Origin: Chloroflexota bacterium
GTDB taxonomy: Bacteria > Chloroflexota > Anaerolineae > UBA4142
Reading direction: 5' to 3'
DNA length: 64,000 nt
Assembly: GCA_016219275.1 (NCBI GenBank)
Contig: JACRBM010000021.1
Coordinates: forward strand, 1-64,000
Shown here in pieces: positions 16,772-61,616 of the stretch. The translations under genes were made by a program, and so were the position numbers. The notes beneath the pieces were generated by a model, which had not been told where the DNA came from, searched no databases, and worked only from the letters and a program-made list of their open reading frames with translations. Every line of letters begins with the position of its first letter. Within the stretch, counting starts at the first letter, position 1.

Positions 16772-16861
16772 TCCAGTGAACCGTGGTCAGTGAACCGTGG
16801 TCAGTGAAGAGTGAACAGTCGCGTTATCCACTGTTCACTCTTCACTGTTCACGGTTCACTG
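16772..16861. repeat. hairpin of CAGTGAACCGTG units upstream of accC
   Basis: The left arm repeats CAGTGAACCGTGGT twice and then CAGTGAAGAGTGAACAGT; the right arm is its inverted copy with one unit fewer. The left arm is thus one 14-bp unit longer. The stem spans nearly all of the gap to the acetyltransferase gene. Confidence 0.8.
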
Positions 16862-17443
16862 ATTTAGTTTTTCTTCAAGGCGCGCTTTGACCGCGTGCCA
16901 TTCCGTATCAATGATGCTGTACATCACCGTATCGCGAATGTAGTCGGTGCGCGTGAGCATGTGCTTGCGGAGAACGCCTTCCTTGACCGCGCCGAGTCGT
17001 TCGATGGCGCGTTGCGAGCGAATGTTGCGTGCGTCGGTTTTGAGCTGCACGCGCACGCAACCCAGGTTTTCAAAAGCGTGTTTCAGTAAAAGATATTTGC
17101 ACTCGGTGTTGATTGGCGTGCGCCAGACTTCCGGCGTCAGCCACGTCCCGCCAATTTCCAGCCCGCGATCTTTGCGATGGATGTCCATGTAACTCGTCGT
17201 GCCAATCGCGCGCCCATCGCTGTTGCGAACGATGACGAACCAGATGCGTTCGCCGGATTCGGTCTGACGAATCGCGGACGCGATCCAGGCGTGCATTTCT
17301 TCGCGCGTTTGCCCAGGAGTCGTCGCGATAAATTCCCAAATCTCATTCGGTTGCGCGGCGGCAAGCAAATCGTCTGCATACCGGAAATCCGGCGGCACGA
17401 GCCGGCTGTGCGCGCCGGTGAGGGTAACCGCAGAAATATTCAT
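16856..17443 (-). CDS. GNAT N-acetyltransferase (RimJ/RimL type), copy 2
   Basis: 195 aa GNAT fold; the acetyl-CoA region is around IGGTWLTPEVWRTPINTE, and RSQRAIERLGAVKEGVLRKH is the RimL-type C-terminal block. It is a tandem duplicate of the preceding gene: both start MNI..LTLTGAH and share these blocks. The start at 17443 aligns with the paralogue and follows its stop by 4 nt; a start 5 codons earlier would overlap. The substrate is unknown. Confidence 0.85.
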   Translation of the reverse strand: MNISAVTLTGAHSRLVPPDFRYADDLLAAAQPNEIWEFIATTPGQTREEMHAWIASAIRQTESGERIWFVIVRNSDGRAIGTTSYMDIHRKDRGLEIGGTWLTPEVWRTPINTECKYLLLKHAFENLGCVRVQLKTDARNIRSQRAIERLGAVKEGVLRKHMLTRTDYIRDTVMYSIIDTEWHAVKARLEEKLNQ

Positions 17444-24573: not shown

Positions 24574-24579
24574 CCGCGT

Positions 24580-24681
24580 GTCATTGCGAGGGCGGTTTTT
24601 GCCCGAAGCAATCCCCGCACTACTATTCCGGAACGACCTGGTTGGGGATTGCTTTGCAAACGCTTCGCGGCTCGCAATGAC
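24580..24681. repeat. REP-like palindrome, copy 1 (GTCATTGCGAG family)
   Basis: Starts GTCATTGCGAGGGCGG and ends with the inverted CTCGCAATGAC; inner arms GAAGCAATCCCC and GGGGATTGCTT also pair. Other copies: 40331-40482 and a diverged one at 50574-50633. Confidence 0.85.
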
Positions 24682-34521: not shown

Positions 34522-34662
34522 GCCCCATCGTCGAGGGCGGGAATTGGAGAGTGCCTCTCAGTAAATAGTAAACAGTGAACAGTAAACAGTCTTGACTGTT
34601 CACTGTTCACTGTTCACTGCATACTGGGGTTCACTCTCCAGTCCCTGACCTCCGATGCGGGC
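34522..34662 (+). ncRNA. structured leader upstream of pnp
   Basis: Long coaxial hairpin: GCCCCATCG (34522-34530) pairs with CGATGCGGGC (34653-34662, one bulged C); GAGG (34533-34536) with CCTC; GGGA (34539-34542) with TCCC; TGGAGAGTG (34545-34553) with CACTCTCCA (34632-34640). Small internal loops separate the helices. The apical loop is filled by a GTGAACAGTAAACAGT repeat hairpin. pnp leaders in other bacteria are autoregulated through such stems; that role is inferred here. Confidence 0.6.
34560..34620. repeat. AACAGTGAACAGT repeat in the apical loop of the leader
   Basis: GTAAATAGTAAACAGTGAAC units on the left and TGTTCACTGTTCACTG on the right form a perfect hairpin around CTT. Its units resemble those before accC (16772-16861). 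Confidence 0.8.
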
Positions 34663-34663
34663 T

Positions 34664-34763
34664 ACTAGTTCAATAGAGCAATAGTTGATAGTGCGAGTGT
34701 TCATTCTTGCCGCGCACGACAACTATCGCACTAACGCACTATTGCACTATCGAACTAACTCGG
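34664..34763. repeat. GTGCGATAGTGCAATAG hairpin just before pnp
   Basis: Left arm TAGTTCAATAGAGCAATAGT plus GATAGTGCG; right arm CTATCGCACTAACGCACTAT and TGCACTATCGAACTA. It stops 2 nt before the GGAGG of pnp. The same unit family fills a loop of the cobalamin riboswitch. Confidence 0.8.
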
Positions 34764-38926: not shown

Positions 38927-38944
38927 CGAATCAAGTTTAACAAT

Positions 38945-39190
38945 CGAAATCGCAAAGGTGACCCGACCGCAAGGTCGCACTCGACGGTGCGCGTGGGTCT
39001 CAATAGGGCAAGTCCGGTTCCAGTCCGGCGCTGTCCCGCAACTGTAAGTTAGTCTAGTGCAATAGTGCGATAGTGTGTTAGTGCGTTAGTTCGTTCAGTC
39101 TCTCTACATCCTTCCACTACCGCACTATCGAACTATCCAACTATCGCACTAGAACACTAACAAGCCAGAACACCTGCCTTTGCAAGCGAA
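38945..39190 (+). promoter_or_regulatory. cobalamin riboswitch with expanded peripheral arm
   Basis: The conserved core is present: AAAGGTGACCCG, GGTCTCAATAGGG, AGTCCGGTTCCAGTCCGGCG, GTCCCGCAACTGTAA, then AAGCCAGAACACCTGCC. P1 forms between GCAAAGG (38952-38958) and CCTTTGC (39177-39183). The variable arm between ACTGTAA and GCCAGAA is unusually long (39046-39163) and is a hairpin of GTGCGATAGT units. It should turn off btuF and the downstream cob genes when cobalamin is abundant. Confidence 0.92.
39049..39163. repeat. GTGCGATAGT repeat arm inside the riboswitch
   Basis: TAGTGCAATAGTGCGATAGT (left) pairs with ACTATCGCACTAG and CCGCACTATCGAACTAT (right). Same unit as 34664-34763. Confidence 0.8.
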
Positions 39191-39267
39191 CGTCTTGTTT
39201 CATGCGTTCGTATTCCGAGCAACCTTCGCGAGAAAGGGGGCAGGGTCATGAACAACACGGTTTAACC

Positions 39268-39303
39268 CCCTCTGCCTTTCGTAAGGCAGAGGGATTTTTT
39301 ATT
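39268..39303 (+). terminator. riboswitch-controlled terminator
   Basis: 11-bp stem CCCTCTGCCTT (39268-39278) / AAGGCAGAGGG (39283-39293), then ATTTTTT. It lies between the aptamer and btuF, as expected for transcriptional control; a G-rich run at 39234-39240 could compete for the C-rich left arm. Confidence 0.85.
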
Positions 39304-39378: not shown

Positions 39379-40311
39379 GTGATGAATAAGCGAATCGTTT
39401 TTCTGATCGGATTTCTCGCGCTGGTGTTGAGCGCATGTGCGCCGACTCCACCCCCGACCCAGGTTCCGCCGACGAGCGCGCCCGCGGCATTCCCGCTGAC
39501 GATCACGGACGACGCGGGACGGGCGGTCACGATCAAAGCGGAACCCAAGCGCGTCGTCTCGCTCGCGCCGAGCAACACCGAAACGATCTACGCGCTCGGC
39601 AAAGGCGCGACCGTCGTCGGTGTGACCGAGTATTGCAATTTTCCGCCGGAAGCAAAAGAGAAACCCAAGGTCGGCGGGTTTGCGAAAATAGATCTCGAAA
39701 AAGTCGTCGGACTCTCGCCCGATCTTGTGCTCGCGACGAACATTCACGCAAAAAGCATCGTGCCCGAACTCGAAAAACGCGGACTGACTGTCGTGGTCAT
39801 GGATCCGAAGAATATGACGGAAGTGATCGGCAAGCTCACGACGTTTGGCAAAATGCTCGGCGCGAATGAGGACGCGGGCAAACTCGCCGCGCAACTCAAG
39901 AGCCGGATGGACGCGATTATTTCTCAAGTGGCAACGGCGAAGACCAAGCCGCGCGTCTTTTACGAAATTGACAAGAGTCTCTACACGCCCGGTCCGGGTT
40001 CCTTCATTGACGATATGCTCGTACAAGCCGGCGGCGTGAACATTGCCGCCGCCGCGAAAGGCAACTTTGTTCAACTGAGCGTCGAAACGATCATCGCGCA
40101 AGACCCCGAAGTGATTTTCCTGGGCGATATGAATTTTGGCGAGACACCCGAAAAAATCAAGGTGCGTCCTGGTTGGGCAAATATCACCGCGGTCAAAACC
40201 GGGCGCATCGTTCCGCTGCCGAATGAGGATGTCATTTCGCGTCCGGGTCCGCGCATCGTCGAGGGATTCGAAATGCTCGCGCGCGGGCTGTATCCCGATT
40301 TATTCAAATGA
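39379..40311 (+). CDS. btuF: cobalamin-binding lipoprotein BtuF
   Basis: 310 aa. Lipobox LSAC gives Cys19; a short Pro-rich tether precedes a helical-backbone binding fold (RVVSLAPSNTETIYALGKG; GVTEYCNFPPEA; DLVLATN), typical of BtuF/FepB class III binding proteins. Position after a cobalamin riboswitch and before btuCD makes corrinoid the likely ligand. Confidence 0.93.
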   Translation: MMNKRIVFLIGFLALVLSACAPTPPPTQVPPTSAPAAFPLTITDDAGRAVTIKAEPKRVVSLAPSNTETIYALGKGATVVGVTEYCNFPPEAKEKPKVGGFAKIDLEKVVGLSPDLVLATNIHAKSIVPELEKRGLTVVVMDPKNMTEVIGKLTTFGKMLGANEDAGKLAAQLKSRMDAIISQVATAKTKPRVFYEIDKSLYTPGPGSFIDDMLVQAGGVNIAAAAKGNFVQLSVETIIAQDPEVIFLGDMNFGETPEKIKVRPGWANITAVKTGRIVPLPNEDVISRPGPRIVEGFEMLARGLYPDLFK

Positions 40312-40330
40312 TGTAAAACGCAACTGGGTT

Positions 40331-40482
40331 GTCATTGCGAGGGCGGTTTTCGCCCGAAGCAATCACCCCTCCCAACCCTCCCCTTGTTAAGGGGAGGGCT
40401 AGGGCTCCCAATCCTCCCCTTAACAAGGGGAGGGCTAGGGTGGGGTTGAAGATTGCTTCGCCGCTTCGCGGCTCGCAATGAC
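40331..40482. repeat. REP-like palindrome, copy 2, with a nested repeat
   Basis: Outer arms GTCATTGCGAGGGCGG and GGCTCGCAATGAC match copy 24580-24681. Inserted inside (about 40364-40447) are two CTCCCCTT..AAGGGGAGG hairpins in tandem (one unit TTGTTAAG, the other TTAACAAG). Confidence 0.85.
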
Positions 40483-40520: not shown

Positions 40521-41612
40521 ATGATTGAAGTACCGCGCGAAGCAAGGGCGCAATCTAATGCGCCCGATAAAACTGAAAACATCATTCCTGGGTCGCGTCA
40601 TCGCGGCACAATCTTGTTGATCGCCGCGCTCGGCGTCATCATAACCGGCGCGGTTGCCGCAACCTTCGGCTCGGTCGCGATTCCGTTAGAGACGCTCGCG
40701 CGCATGATCGTGGTCAAATTGCCGGGCGCGCCCATCGCAGTGACGTGGCAAGCGAGCTGGGAAACGATTCTGTTCGACATTCGTTTGCCGCGCGTCGTGC
40801 TCGCGGGCTTGGTCGGCATCGCGCTCGCGACATCGGGCGCGACCTACCAGGGTCTGTTACGCAACCCGCTCGCCGATCCGTACTTGATCGGTGTGTCGTC
40901 CGGCGCGGCGCTCGGCGCGACGATTGCCATCGTCTTTTCTGTGGAGTTTGCAGGCGCGCTGCCGCTGTTCGCATTCCTGGGTGCGATCGGCGCGACGTTC
41001 GGCATCTACGCGCTCGCGCAATCCGACGGACGCGCCACGCCGACGACGTTGATTCTCGCGGGCGTCGCGCTCGGCGCGTTCCTCTCGGCGATCACGTCGT
41101 TCTTGATGTTTCGCAGTGACAGCGCGTTTCGTTCGTTTCAAATTATCGCGTGGATGATGGGCAGTTTTTCGTTGAGCAATTGGCAACAAGTACTCATTCT
41201 GTTGCCGTACCTCGCGCTGGGTTGGTTCGTCTTGTTCCTGCACGCGCGGTACTTGAACGTGTTGCAACTCGGCGAGACGCAGGCGCAGCAACTCGGCGTG
41301 CCGGTCGAGCGCGTGACGTTGACGCTCGTCGTCGCAACCTCGCTCGTCACCGCGGCGGCGGTCGCGGTGAGCGGCTTGATCGGTTTCGTCGGTTTGATCG
41401 TGCCGCACGCGGTTCGCCTCGTGTGGGGACCCGATCACCGGTTTCTCTTGCCGATGTGCGCGTTGCTTGGCGCGATGTTTCTCATTATCGCGGACACGCT
41501 CGCGCGCACACTGCTCGCGCCGAGCGAATTGCCGGTCGGCATCATTACGGCGTTTTGCGGTGCGCCGTTTTTTCTGTACTTGCTGCGGCGCAAAAGGGAG
41601 GTGCTGGGATGA
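40521..41612 (+). CDS. btuC: cobalamin ABC transporter permease BtuC
   Basis: 363 aa, about ten membrane segments, FecCD family (VLAGLVGIALATSGATYQGL; NPLADPYLIGVSSGAALG; IGFVGLIVPHAVRL). It forms the channel with BtuD. The gene is separated from btuF by the REP-like palindrome, and its stop overlaps the btuD start by 4 nt. The N-terminus (first 28 aa) is polar. Confidence 0.95.
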   Translation: MIEVPREARAQSNAPDKTENIIPGSRHRGTILLIAALGVIITGAVAATFGSVAIPLETLARMIVVKLPGAPIAVTWQASWETILFDIRLPRVVLAGLVGIALATSGATYQGLLRNPLADPYLIGVSSGAALGATIAIVFSVEFAGALPLFAFLGAIGATFGIYALAQSDGRATPTTLILAGVALGAFLSAITSFLMFRSDSAFRSFQIIAWMMGSFSLSNWQQVLILLPYLALGWFVLFLHARYLNVLQLGETQAQQLGVPVERVTLTLVVATSLVTAAAVAVSGLIGFVGLIVPHAVRLVWGPDHRFLLPMCALLGAMFLIIADTLARTLLAPSELPVGIITAFCGAPFFLYLLRRKREVLG

Positions 41613-45523: not shown

Positions 45524-45568
45524 AGTATTCAGTGTTCAGTGTTCAGTCTCAACACTGAATACTGAATA
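45524..45568. repeat. AGTATTCAGTGTTCAGT hairpin
   Basis: Left arm AGTATTCAGTGTTCAGTGTT, right arm AACACTGAATACT. It directly abuts the MITE at 45567. Confidence 0.75.
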
Positions 45569-45687
45569 GACTTTATTGGAAACAACTTTTGTCTCTCGCC
45601 AAGACGCAAAGCACGCAAAGAAGCATATTGAAAAAACTTGCGTTCTTGGCGGCTTGGCGAGATATGCCTTATTCCCGATAATGTCTA
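45567..45687 (+). mobile_element. 121-bp MITE-like element, copy 1
   Basis: Ends TAGACTTTATTGG and ATAATGTCTA are imperfect terminal inverted repeats; TA at each end suits a TA target duplication. Interior has CTCGCCAAGACGCAAAGC and CTTGGCGGCTTGGCGAG. An inverted copy of identical length lies at 51668-51788. Confidence 0.75.
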
Positions 45688-45725
45688 ATACTGTTGACTG
45701 CTGACTATCCCACTGTCTCACTGAA

Positions 45726-50749: not shown

Positions 50750-51686
50750 TTGTCTACAACCCGTTATTTTGTAGGTCTCGACATTGCCGCGGAGACCTTC
50801 ATGGCAGCCCTTGGTACGACGCCGTGGAAGTTGCTCGTCCGAGCCAACCAGTTTCCAAACTCGGCGGACGGGTTTCGGCAGTTGACCCAATGGTTGCACG
50901 AGCACGACTGCACGCTCGAGCAAACGGTTTTGTGATGGAAGAGATGGGCGTGTATGGCGAAGCCCTCGCCTATTACCTGGTGGCTCAAAAATATGCCATA
51001 GTGATCGAGCCGCCTTTGAGGGTCCGCGTGCCTTCACGCCCGCGAGTCCTAAAACGGATGCGGTGGACAGTGAGCAAATTGCCGAATACGCCTGTCGCTA
51101 CAGCGACGAACTGATGCTCTGGCAGCCGTCGAGCGAACTGGTCGAACAATTGCAGGGCTGGCTCACCACGCGCGAACAGTTGGTTCAGCAAGCGACCGCA
51201 CAGCAGAACGCCTTGCGCGGGTTACGGCGCCAAGTCGTCCGCATCGCGTTCGCCGAGCAGGTCTATGAACACATGATCACCGAAACTCGCTCGCGCAATA
51301 AAGCCCTGGAGCAAGAAATCTATTGCTTGATTGACCAACATCCCACCGCACATCGTTTGCTGACTTGGCTCGTCACCATTCCGGGCGTGGGGCTCTTGCT
51401 GGCGGCGCACATCTTGGTACTCACGCACTGTGCGATGCACCCGTTTCCAGCCCCCAAACTCGCGACGCATCTTGGGATTGCGCCCATTGCTCGCGAAAGT
51501 GGCACATCCGTCTATGCCCACCTCACCTCGCGTCATTATGGTCCGAGCCAACCGCGCAAGTTACTGCATTTGGCGGCGCGTTCGGTCAGCACGCACGACA
51601 AACACTTTCGGGCGTACTACGCGAGGAAGGTCGCGGAAAGCAAAGCCAAAAAACTTGTTTTGAATAATAGACATTATCGGGAATAA
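50750..51686 (+). pseudogene. IS110-family transposase, frameshifted
   Basis: Fragments of one IS110 transposase lie in three frames: RYFVGLDIAAETFMAAL (DEDD start), then EEMGVYGEALAYYL after a shift near 50930, and DAVDSEQIAEYACRYSD after another near 51020, continuing through the transposase-20 domain (IPGVGLLLAAHILVLTH; HLGIAPIARESGTSVY) to a stop at 51686. The shifts need two separate indels, so it is dead. The final residues come from the MITE at 51668. A TATAAT box at 50667-50672 precedes it. Confidence 0.88.
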
Positions 51687-51788
51687 GACATCTCTCGCCA
51701 AGCCGCCAAGAACGCCAAGTTTTTTAAGATGATTCTTTACGTGCCTTGCGTCTTGGCGCGAGGTAAAAGTTGTTTCCGATAAAGTCTA
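51668..51788 (-). mobile_element. 121-bp MITE-like element, copy 2
   Basis: Inverted copy of 45567-45687, same length, about 85% identical by eye. It sits at the 3' end of the IS110 remnant and supplies its last codons. Terminal repeats TAGACATTATCGG and CCGATAAAGTCTA. Confidence 0.75.
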
Positions 51789-61372: not shown

Positions 61373-61430
61373 GCGATTGACCTCGAAGAAAAATTATGCG
61401 GGTTGTAGTGTACTCGCCTTGGGCATTCCG

Positions 61431-61616
61431 GTCAACTGAGTCGCAATGGGCAAGATAGAATCTTGCCCCACAAGAATCCGGTCAACGGAGTCGCAATGGG
61501 CAAGATAGAATCTTGCCCCACAAGAATCCGGTCAACGGAGTCGCAATGGGCAAGATAGAATCTTGCCCCACAAGAATCCGGTCAACTGTGGCGCAAGATT
61601 CCATCTTGCGTTACGG
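61431..61616. repeat. three 50-bp tandem units plus a degenerate fourth
   Basis: 61431-61480, 61481-61530 and 61531-61580 are near-identical 50-bp units, each with GGGCAAGAT/ATCTTGCCC inverted around AGA. A degenerate unit from 61581 has CGCAAGAT/ATCTTGCG. Only the ACTG/ACGG base differs between units. No gene is between 61373 and 61654. Confidence 0.9.

Follow-up and report, generated by a model that had tools for sequence, protein, structure and literature searches.

The P7 arm of a cobalamin riboswitch from a Chloroflexota bacterium is a long imperfect hairpin built from tandem 8-nt repeats, and many related riboswitches carry arms built from other 7- or 8-nt units at the same place while the remainder of the RNA is conserved. 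Our preferred interpretation is that the locus is an ordinary terminator-type cobalamin riboswitch, presumably controlling a B12-type ABC importer, in whose P7 arm repeats are recurrently born and turned over through slippage. We put the probability of this explanation as a whole, arm turnover included, at roughly 0.7, and it does not imply that the arm has a function of its own. The locus was analysed within a window of 64,000 nucleotides, which is the whole stretch of DNA presented above, and was then compared with cobalamin aptamers from related genomes.

A cobalamin riboswitch with a repeat-built P7 arm

The Rfam covariance model for cobalamin riboswitches (RF00174) matches the locus across its full length (model positions 1-189) with a score of 45.0 bits, which is above the gathering score of 31.5 (E = 4.6e-08). 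The match spans the arm, as the earlier note had expected, and no aptamer boundary excludes it. Distinguishing features of this riboswitch class are present, including a B12 box (GCCAGAACACCTGCC), an L5 segment (GCTGTCCCGC) with its CCC (GTCCCGC), and a B12-related transporter gene on the 3′ side. The arm is flanked directly by conserved core sequences, with the block AACTGTAA on its 5′ side (39040-39047) and GCCAG on its 3′ side (39164-39168). Its designation as P7 follows the nomenclature of Barrick and Breaker, in which P6 and P7 are separated by an internal loop that includes part of the B12 box, with the P8-P10-P11 portion being optional (PMC2258182).

Table 1. Coordinates of the riboswitch locus and of the related pnp-leader hairpin within the window.
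Feature	Position	Strand	Basis or remark
Second hairpin of the arm's octamer family, in the pnp leader	34672..34757	+	
Cobalamin riboswitch aptamer (RF00174), full-length match	38944..39195	+	cmscan, 45.0 bits, model 1-189
P7 arm, imperfect hairpin of 8-nt tandem repeats, 116 nt	39048..39163	+	apical loop of about 25 nt
5′ array, TAGTGCGT-like, period 8	39055..39095	+	TRF, 5.1 copies
3′ array, ACTATCGA-like, period 8	39116..39151	+	TRF, 4.5 copies
B12 box (GCCAGAACACCTGCCT)	39164..39179	+	aligned with the Rfam consensus GCCAGGAGACCuGCC
Conserved platform block GCAACCTTCGCGAGAAAGGGGGCAGG	39219..39244	+	near-identical across most members of the order
Intrinsic terminator, CCCTCTGCCTTTCGTAAGGCAGAGGG plus T run	39268..39300	+	fold; equivalent CCCCTTGTCGAAAAGGCAAGGGGATTTTT in relatives
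Regulated gene, periplasmic binding protein (BtuF-like)	39382..40311	+	Pfam Peripla_BP_2, E 6.7e-43
FecCD-family permease (BtuC-like)	40521..41612	+	Pfam FecCD, E 4e-96

The earlier note had described a hairpin of about 115 nt between the core blocks, and this description holds, with inverted arrays and a stable fold. It had also implied a repeat unit of 10 nt, which must be corrected to an TAGTGCGA-like unit of 8 nt. The two inverted arms of the hairpin (39055-39093 and 39121-39159) are 77% complementary. The predicted RNA fold of the arm has a free energy of −41.9 kcal/mol (z = −5.1 relative to dinucleotide shuffles), and none of 200 shuffled sequences folds as well. Likewise, the period-8 self-similarity inside the two halves of the arm is 0.65 (z = 8.6), a value reached by none of 1000 shuffles.

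The platform block located downstream of the aptamer is not part of the Rfam model and yet is nearly invariant within the order. It contains GGCAGG, the complement of CCTGCC in the B12 box, and is a candidate for a switching helix, perhaps with an antiterminator role, or for the L13 hairpin. A candidate for L13, the partner of L5 in the L5-L13 kissing loop, lies within the conserved CCTTCGCGAGAAAGG hairpin. When the BtuF protein encoded downstream was compared with the genome collection, only distant relatives were recovered (39-45% identity), the best named of which is from an Anaerolineales assembly (45%), a hint of membership in the Chloroflexota.

Repeat arms in related riboswitches

To place the arm in context, we compared 20 cobalamin aptamers identified among genomes of this order, 14 from the organism's own family and six from its sister family. 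Significant period-7 or period-8 arms are present in 13 of the 14 aptamers of the own family, the exception being the 28-nt arm of genome G002, and in four of the six from the sister family, for a total of 17 of 20 when related genomes are counted as separate. In every case the repeat arm starts and ends at identical core bases, and both core and platform are conserved. The units themselves vary. An TAGTGCGA-like octamer forms the arm in G000, G001, G016 and G019, TAGTCAAC is the unit in G006 and G012, and one riboswitch of G011 (G011a) uses TAGTTGCA/TAGTTAGA. Heptamers occur in the second riboswitch of that genome (G011b, CAGTAAA) and in G005 (AGTGGTA), G010 (CAGTCGC) and G007 (GGCAGAT). The two riboswitches of G011 are 86% identical in the core and only 28% identical in the arm. 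A few pairs with a common unit have similar arms, and no single arm sequence is common to all of these genera.

Nine of the 17 members of family f29 (17 genomes) also carry significant repeat arms, and this family provides the most direct comparisons. Within genus g40, whose cores are 74-90% identical, the arm is an 83-nt octamer hairpin in G046, a 76-nt heptamer hairpin in G079, and a plain hairpin of 19 nt in G209 and 15 nt in G414. The cores of G046 and G079 are 90% identical, and the regions downstream of the aptamer in G046 and G209 are 92% identical despite the difference between an 83-nt octamer arm and a 19-nt plain arm. G284 and G375, again of one genus (core identity 91%), similarly pair a plain arm of 17 nt with a heptamer arm of 69 nt. 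In genus g98, the sequences of G184 and G248 are 94% identical in the core and downstream region with arms of 91 versus 125 nt, and their alignment places an insertion of exactly 8 nt on the left side of the hairpin and one of 23 nt on the right. In genus g81, G368 and G106 are 94-97% identical outside the arm (94% in the core) compared to 40% within it.

Arm length thus spans 15-125 nt within single genera while core and terminator are conserved, and most arms are far less similar than the cores, meaning that the arm sequence is not conserved among relatives. The proposal in the earlier note that the repeat had expanded where the structure tolerates it is supported by these same-genus orthologues, which carry either plain arms of 15-19 nt or repeat arms of 76-125 nt and include an indel of one unit. 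That proposal nevertheless understated the phenomenon, which is not a one-off event but recurs in numerous genera whose 7- or 8-nt units differ. Since single genera contain heptamer, octamer and plain arms side by side, repeat arms must have had more than one independent origin.

Further afield, scattered repeat arms are found in the same class (G037 and G030) and in family f51 of another class. Many other arms at the class level are short plain hairpins, and several of 59-68 nt are not repetitive, so a long arm is not automatically a repeat arm. Among long cobalamin aptamers elsewhere in the phylum, arrays were detected in three of 20 fragments, which were scanned over their whole length because the arm finder misparsed several long aptamers; most of these RNAs apparently carry another long domain. 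Repeat arms may help explain the weak covariance scores (25-45 bits) of many such riboswitches.

As a control, we examined the RNase P RNAs and TPP aptamers encoded in these genomes, and none has an array filling an internal arm. These RNAs were rejected as alternative carriers: several have arrays next to them, and in a few cases the overlap is limited to an end of the RNA. At the TPP riboswitch loci L150, L151, L153 and L163, from several genomes, tandem-repeat arrays are located within tens to about 200 bases of the aptamer, outside the internal arms. Among the structured RNAs covered here, tandem repeats preferentially occupy P7 of the cobalamin riboswitch.

Probable origin and turnover of the arm

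A plausible route to such arms begins with a short plain hairpin, in which 7- or 8-nt units would be duplicated in tandem via replication slippage and would subsequently change by point mutation and by wholesale replacement of the unit. Repeat birth and turnover would be tolerated at P7 because this arm needs only a closed helix that leaves and re-enters the core, which might allow short-tandem-repeat hairpins to colonise it and then to arise and disappear repeatedly at one site in this bacterial group. Arm length would be neutral for switching. The insertion or loss of whole units, unequal between the two sides, points to replication slippage as the probable cause.

Pairing between the two sides would have to be maintained during this process. 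Opposite units pair better in register than when shifted by one unit (mean score 18.2 vs 14.7, Wilcoxon p = 0.0004, 18 arms), and the two sides therefore do not drift apart freely. Selection for an intact RNA helix may account for this advantage, as may DNA repair templated by the hairpin, and the data fit both. When unit similarity within an arm was compared with that across arms, there was no overall excess of within-arm homogeneity over cross-arm complementarity, so slippage on each side is inseparable from copying across the hairpin.

Several arms are written in the repeat dialect of their own genome, which makes import by recombination possible. In this alternative, genome-wide repeat hairpins would act as mobile or recombining cassettes that replace P7 by gene conversion or transposition. 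In the genome studied here, the arm's repeat family is abundant: TAGTGCGATAGTGCGATAGT with at most three mismatches occurs at 279 places in the 6.16-Mb genome compared to none for the backward-read control. TAGTGCGA is abundant in G000, G001 and G016, all of which have it in the arm, the counts of TAGTCAAC are highest in G006 and G012, TATCGCC occurs in G037, and TTAGCGA is most frequent in G079, although the backward-read control is uninformative for this last word because a periodic word reads nearly alike when reversed. Arms do not always represent the commonest family of their genome, however. For example, G010 has 90 TAGTGCGA matches and yet carries a CAGTCGC arm. There is also little source material in G375 and G005, where the arm itself accounts for three of four and three of six genomic matches to its unit, respectively; an arm that supplies at least half of these matches favours growth in place. 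In addition, arms of the same genus differ in place by whole units. REP/REPIN or MITE-type mobile elements have a conserved sequence with defined ends or target duplications; the arms have units that differ between genera and borders that coincide with helix ends, and an unsystematic look at the arm edges revealed no common borders or target duplications. We consider import improbable.

In G016, long perfect TAGTGCGA runs are found at C86:2-85 and C192:6666-6765, one of them at a contig end, which suggests that assemblies break within arrays and that copy numbers are underestimated.

A second alternative assigns the repeat arm a positive regulatory function, such as slowing polymerase long enough for the aptamer to fold and bind its ligand before the terminator is made, or binding a protein or RNase III. 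The retention of long arms in 17 of the 20 aptamers of the order and the in-register pairing are what such a role would produce, and in Geobacter, tandem octamers and heptamers in inverted pairs were annotated as predicted binding sites of a global regulator (PMC2700814). However, the lack of an arm sequence common to all genera argues against a sequence-specific protein, and same-genus orthologues with arms of 15-19 nt appear to be functional, judging by their conserved core and platform. Such a role is unlikely. We are equally doubtful that P7 serves as an evolvable tuning element, in which gain or loss of units would alter transcription time and aptamer folding, arm length would set the B12 set-point, and repeat arms would be favoured for this reason. 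Finally, the notion that a genome with roughly one tandem-repeat hairpin per 14 kb simply happens to hold one in a riboswitch is effectively refuted by the census of aptamers, in which the same arm is repetitive between identical bases in 17 of 20 members of the order and nine of 17 of family f29, and by the negative RNase P and TPP controls.

Relation to known repeat systems

Earlier examples of repeat expansion inside structured RNAs come mainly from an intron of cyanobacteria and from RNase P RNA. The short tandemly repeated repetitive (STRR) sequences of heterocystous cyanobacteria are degenerate heptanucleotide units arranged in tandem and dispersed in intergenic DNA, some of which lie in a peripheral RNA helix. 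Vioque reportedly described STRR sequences in the RNase P RNA of these organisms in 1997. The repeats examined here are similarly degenerate and dispersed, and some of them likewise sit in a peripheral helix, here that of a riboswitch. Unlike the cyanobacterial case, RNase P RNA is free of repeats and P7 of the cobalamin riboswitch carries them. With its 8-nt unit and a host from another bacterial group, the arm works like an STRR sequence but is not classed as one.

The closest precedent is P6b of the cyanobacterial trnL (UAA) group I intron. In Nostoc, the two pairing sides of this stem consist wholly of degenerate 7-nt repeats, which always belong to one of two motif classes (TDNGATT and NNTGAGT). 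These classes have repeatedly replaced each other in different lineages, and the stem grows or shrinks in steps of whole repeats, on one side or on both (PMC4476775). Both cases involve a peripheral stem of a structured RNA made from paired degenerate repeats. The present example differs in that the host is a riboswitch from another bacterial group, and in that many 7- and 8-nt units are used rather than two classes in a cyanobacterial intron.

In Geobacter metallireducens, pairs of tandem 7- or 8-nt arrays on opposite strands, with the potential to form hairpins, are found genome-wide (PMC2700814), and these paired inverted octamers and heptamers resemble the ones described here. The Geobacter arrays have conserved units and were read as global regulator sites, and the accessible part of that report describes no riboswitch arm. 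It is also established that long stem-loops without sequence conservation are tolerated at particular sites in many riboswitches, and that P7 of the AdoCbl aptamer can be followed by an optional P8-P10-P11 domain (Barrick and Breaker 2007, PMC2258182). Unlike those insertions, the P7 content described here is composed of tandem repeats with lineage-specific units and includes no conserved P8-P10-P11 domain.

We found no report of repeat-built cobalamin riboswitch arms in the open-access literature, and on that basis it appears to be new that tandem repeats recurrently occupy one riboswitch arm and turn over within it. Repeat growth recurs at a single riboswitch site in many lineages. Individual genera hold plain, heptamer and octamer alleles, and the conserved rest of the RNA serves as an internal control. 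These riboswitches therefore offer a natural mutation series for the birth of repeat hairpins, the upkeep of their complementarity, and the effect of the arm on ligand control.

Repeat hairpins elsewhere in the genome

The arm belongs to the genome's own family of short-tandem-repeat hairpins, which consists of inverted TAGTGCGA-like octamers dispersed in many copies. When 20 other loci of the octamer family were scanned with Rfam, there were no matches, and the copies checked thus lie outside known RNA families. A search of 464 kb of the genome yielded 33 period-7 or period-8 tandem-repeat hairpins, compared to four in a control in which the second arm was complemented without reversal and none in Markov sequence. 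The genome therefore makes such hairpins generally, with many different units.

The earlier note had also recognised the octamer family upstream of pnp, and a hairpin of this family is indeed located there (Table 1), with the gene identified by Pfam. Directly 5′ of it is a near-perfect heptamer hairpin (CAGTAAA / ACTGTTC) at 34555-34630, such that two repeat families stand side by side before one gene. Another long and almost perfect hairpin of 7-nt units (CAGTGAA / CACTGTT, −56.8 kcal/mol) occupies positions 16774-16865 in an intergenic region on the minus strand.

Several other repeated elements are present in the window. A 38-nt element (TGTCATTGCGAGGGCGGTTTT...GAAGCAATC) occurs in two copies that are 95% identical (24579-24616 and 40330-40367). 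Two mutually inverted elements of 124 nt (45567-45690 and 51665-51788) are 88% alike and flank about 6 kb of genes. Each is itself a strong palindrome, and the pair possibly represents a miniature mobile element or the borders of a cassette. A 50-nt tandem repeat (TCCGGTCAACGGAGTCGCAATGGGCAAGATAGAATCTTGCCCCACAAGAA) with an internal palindrome is located at 61427-61596, where it is present in 3.2 copies with 99% matches.
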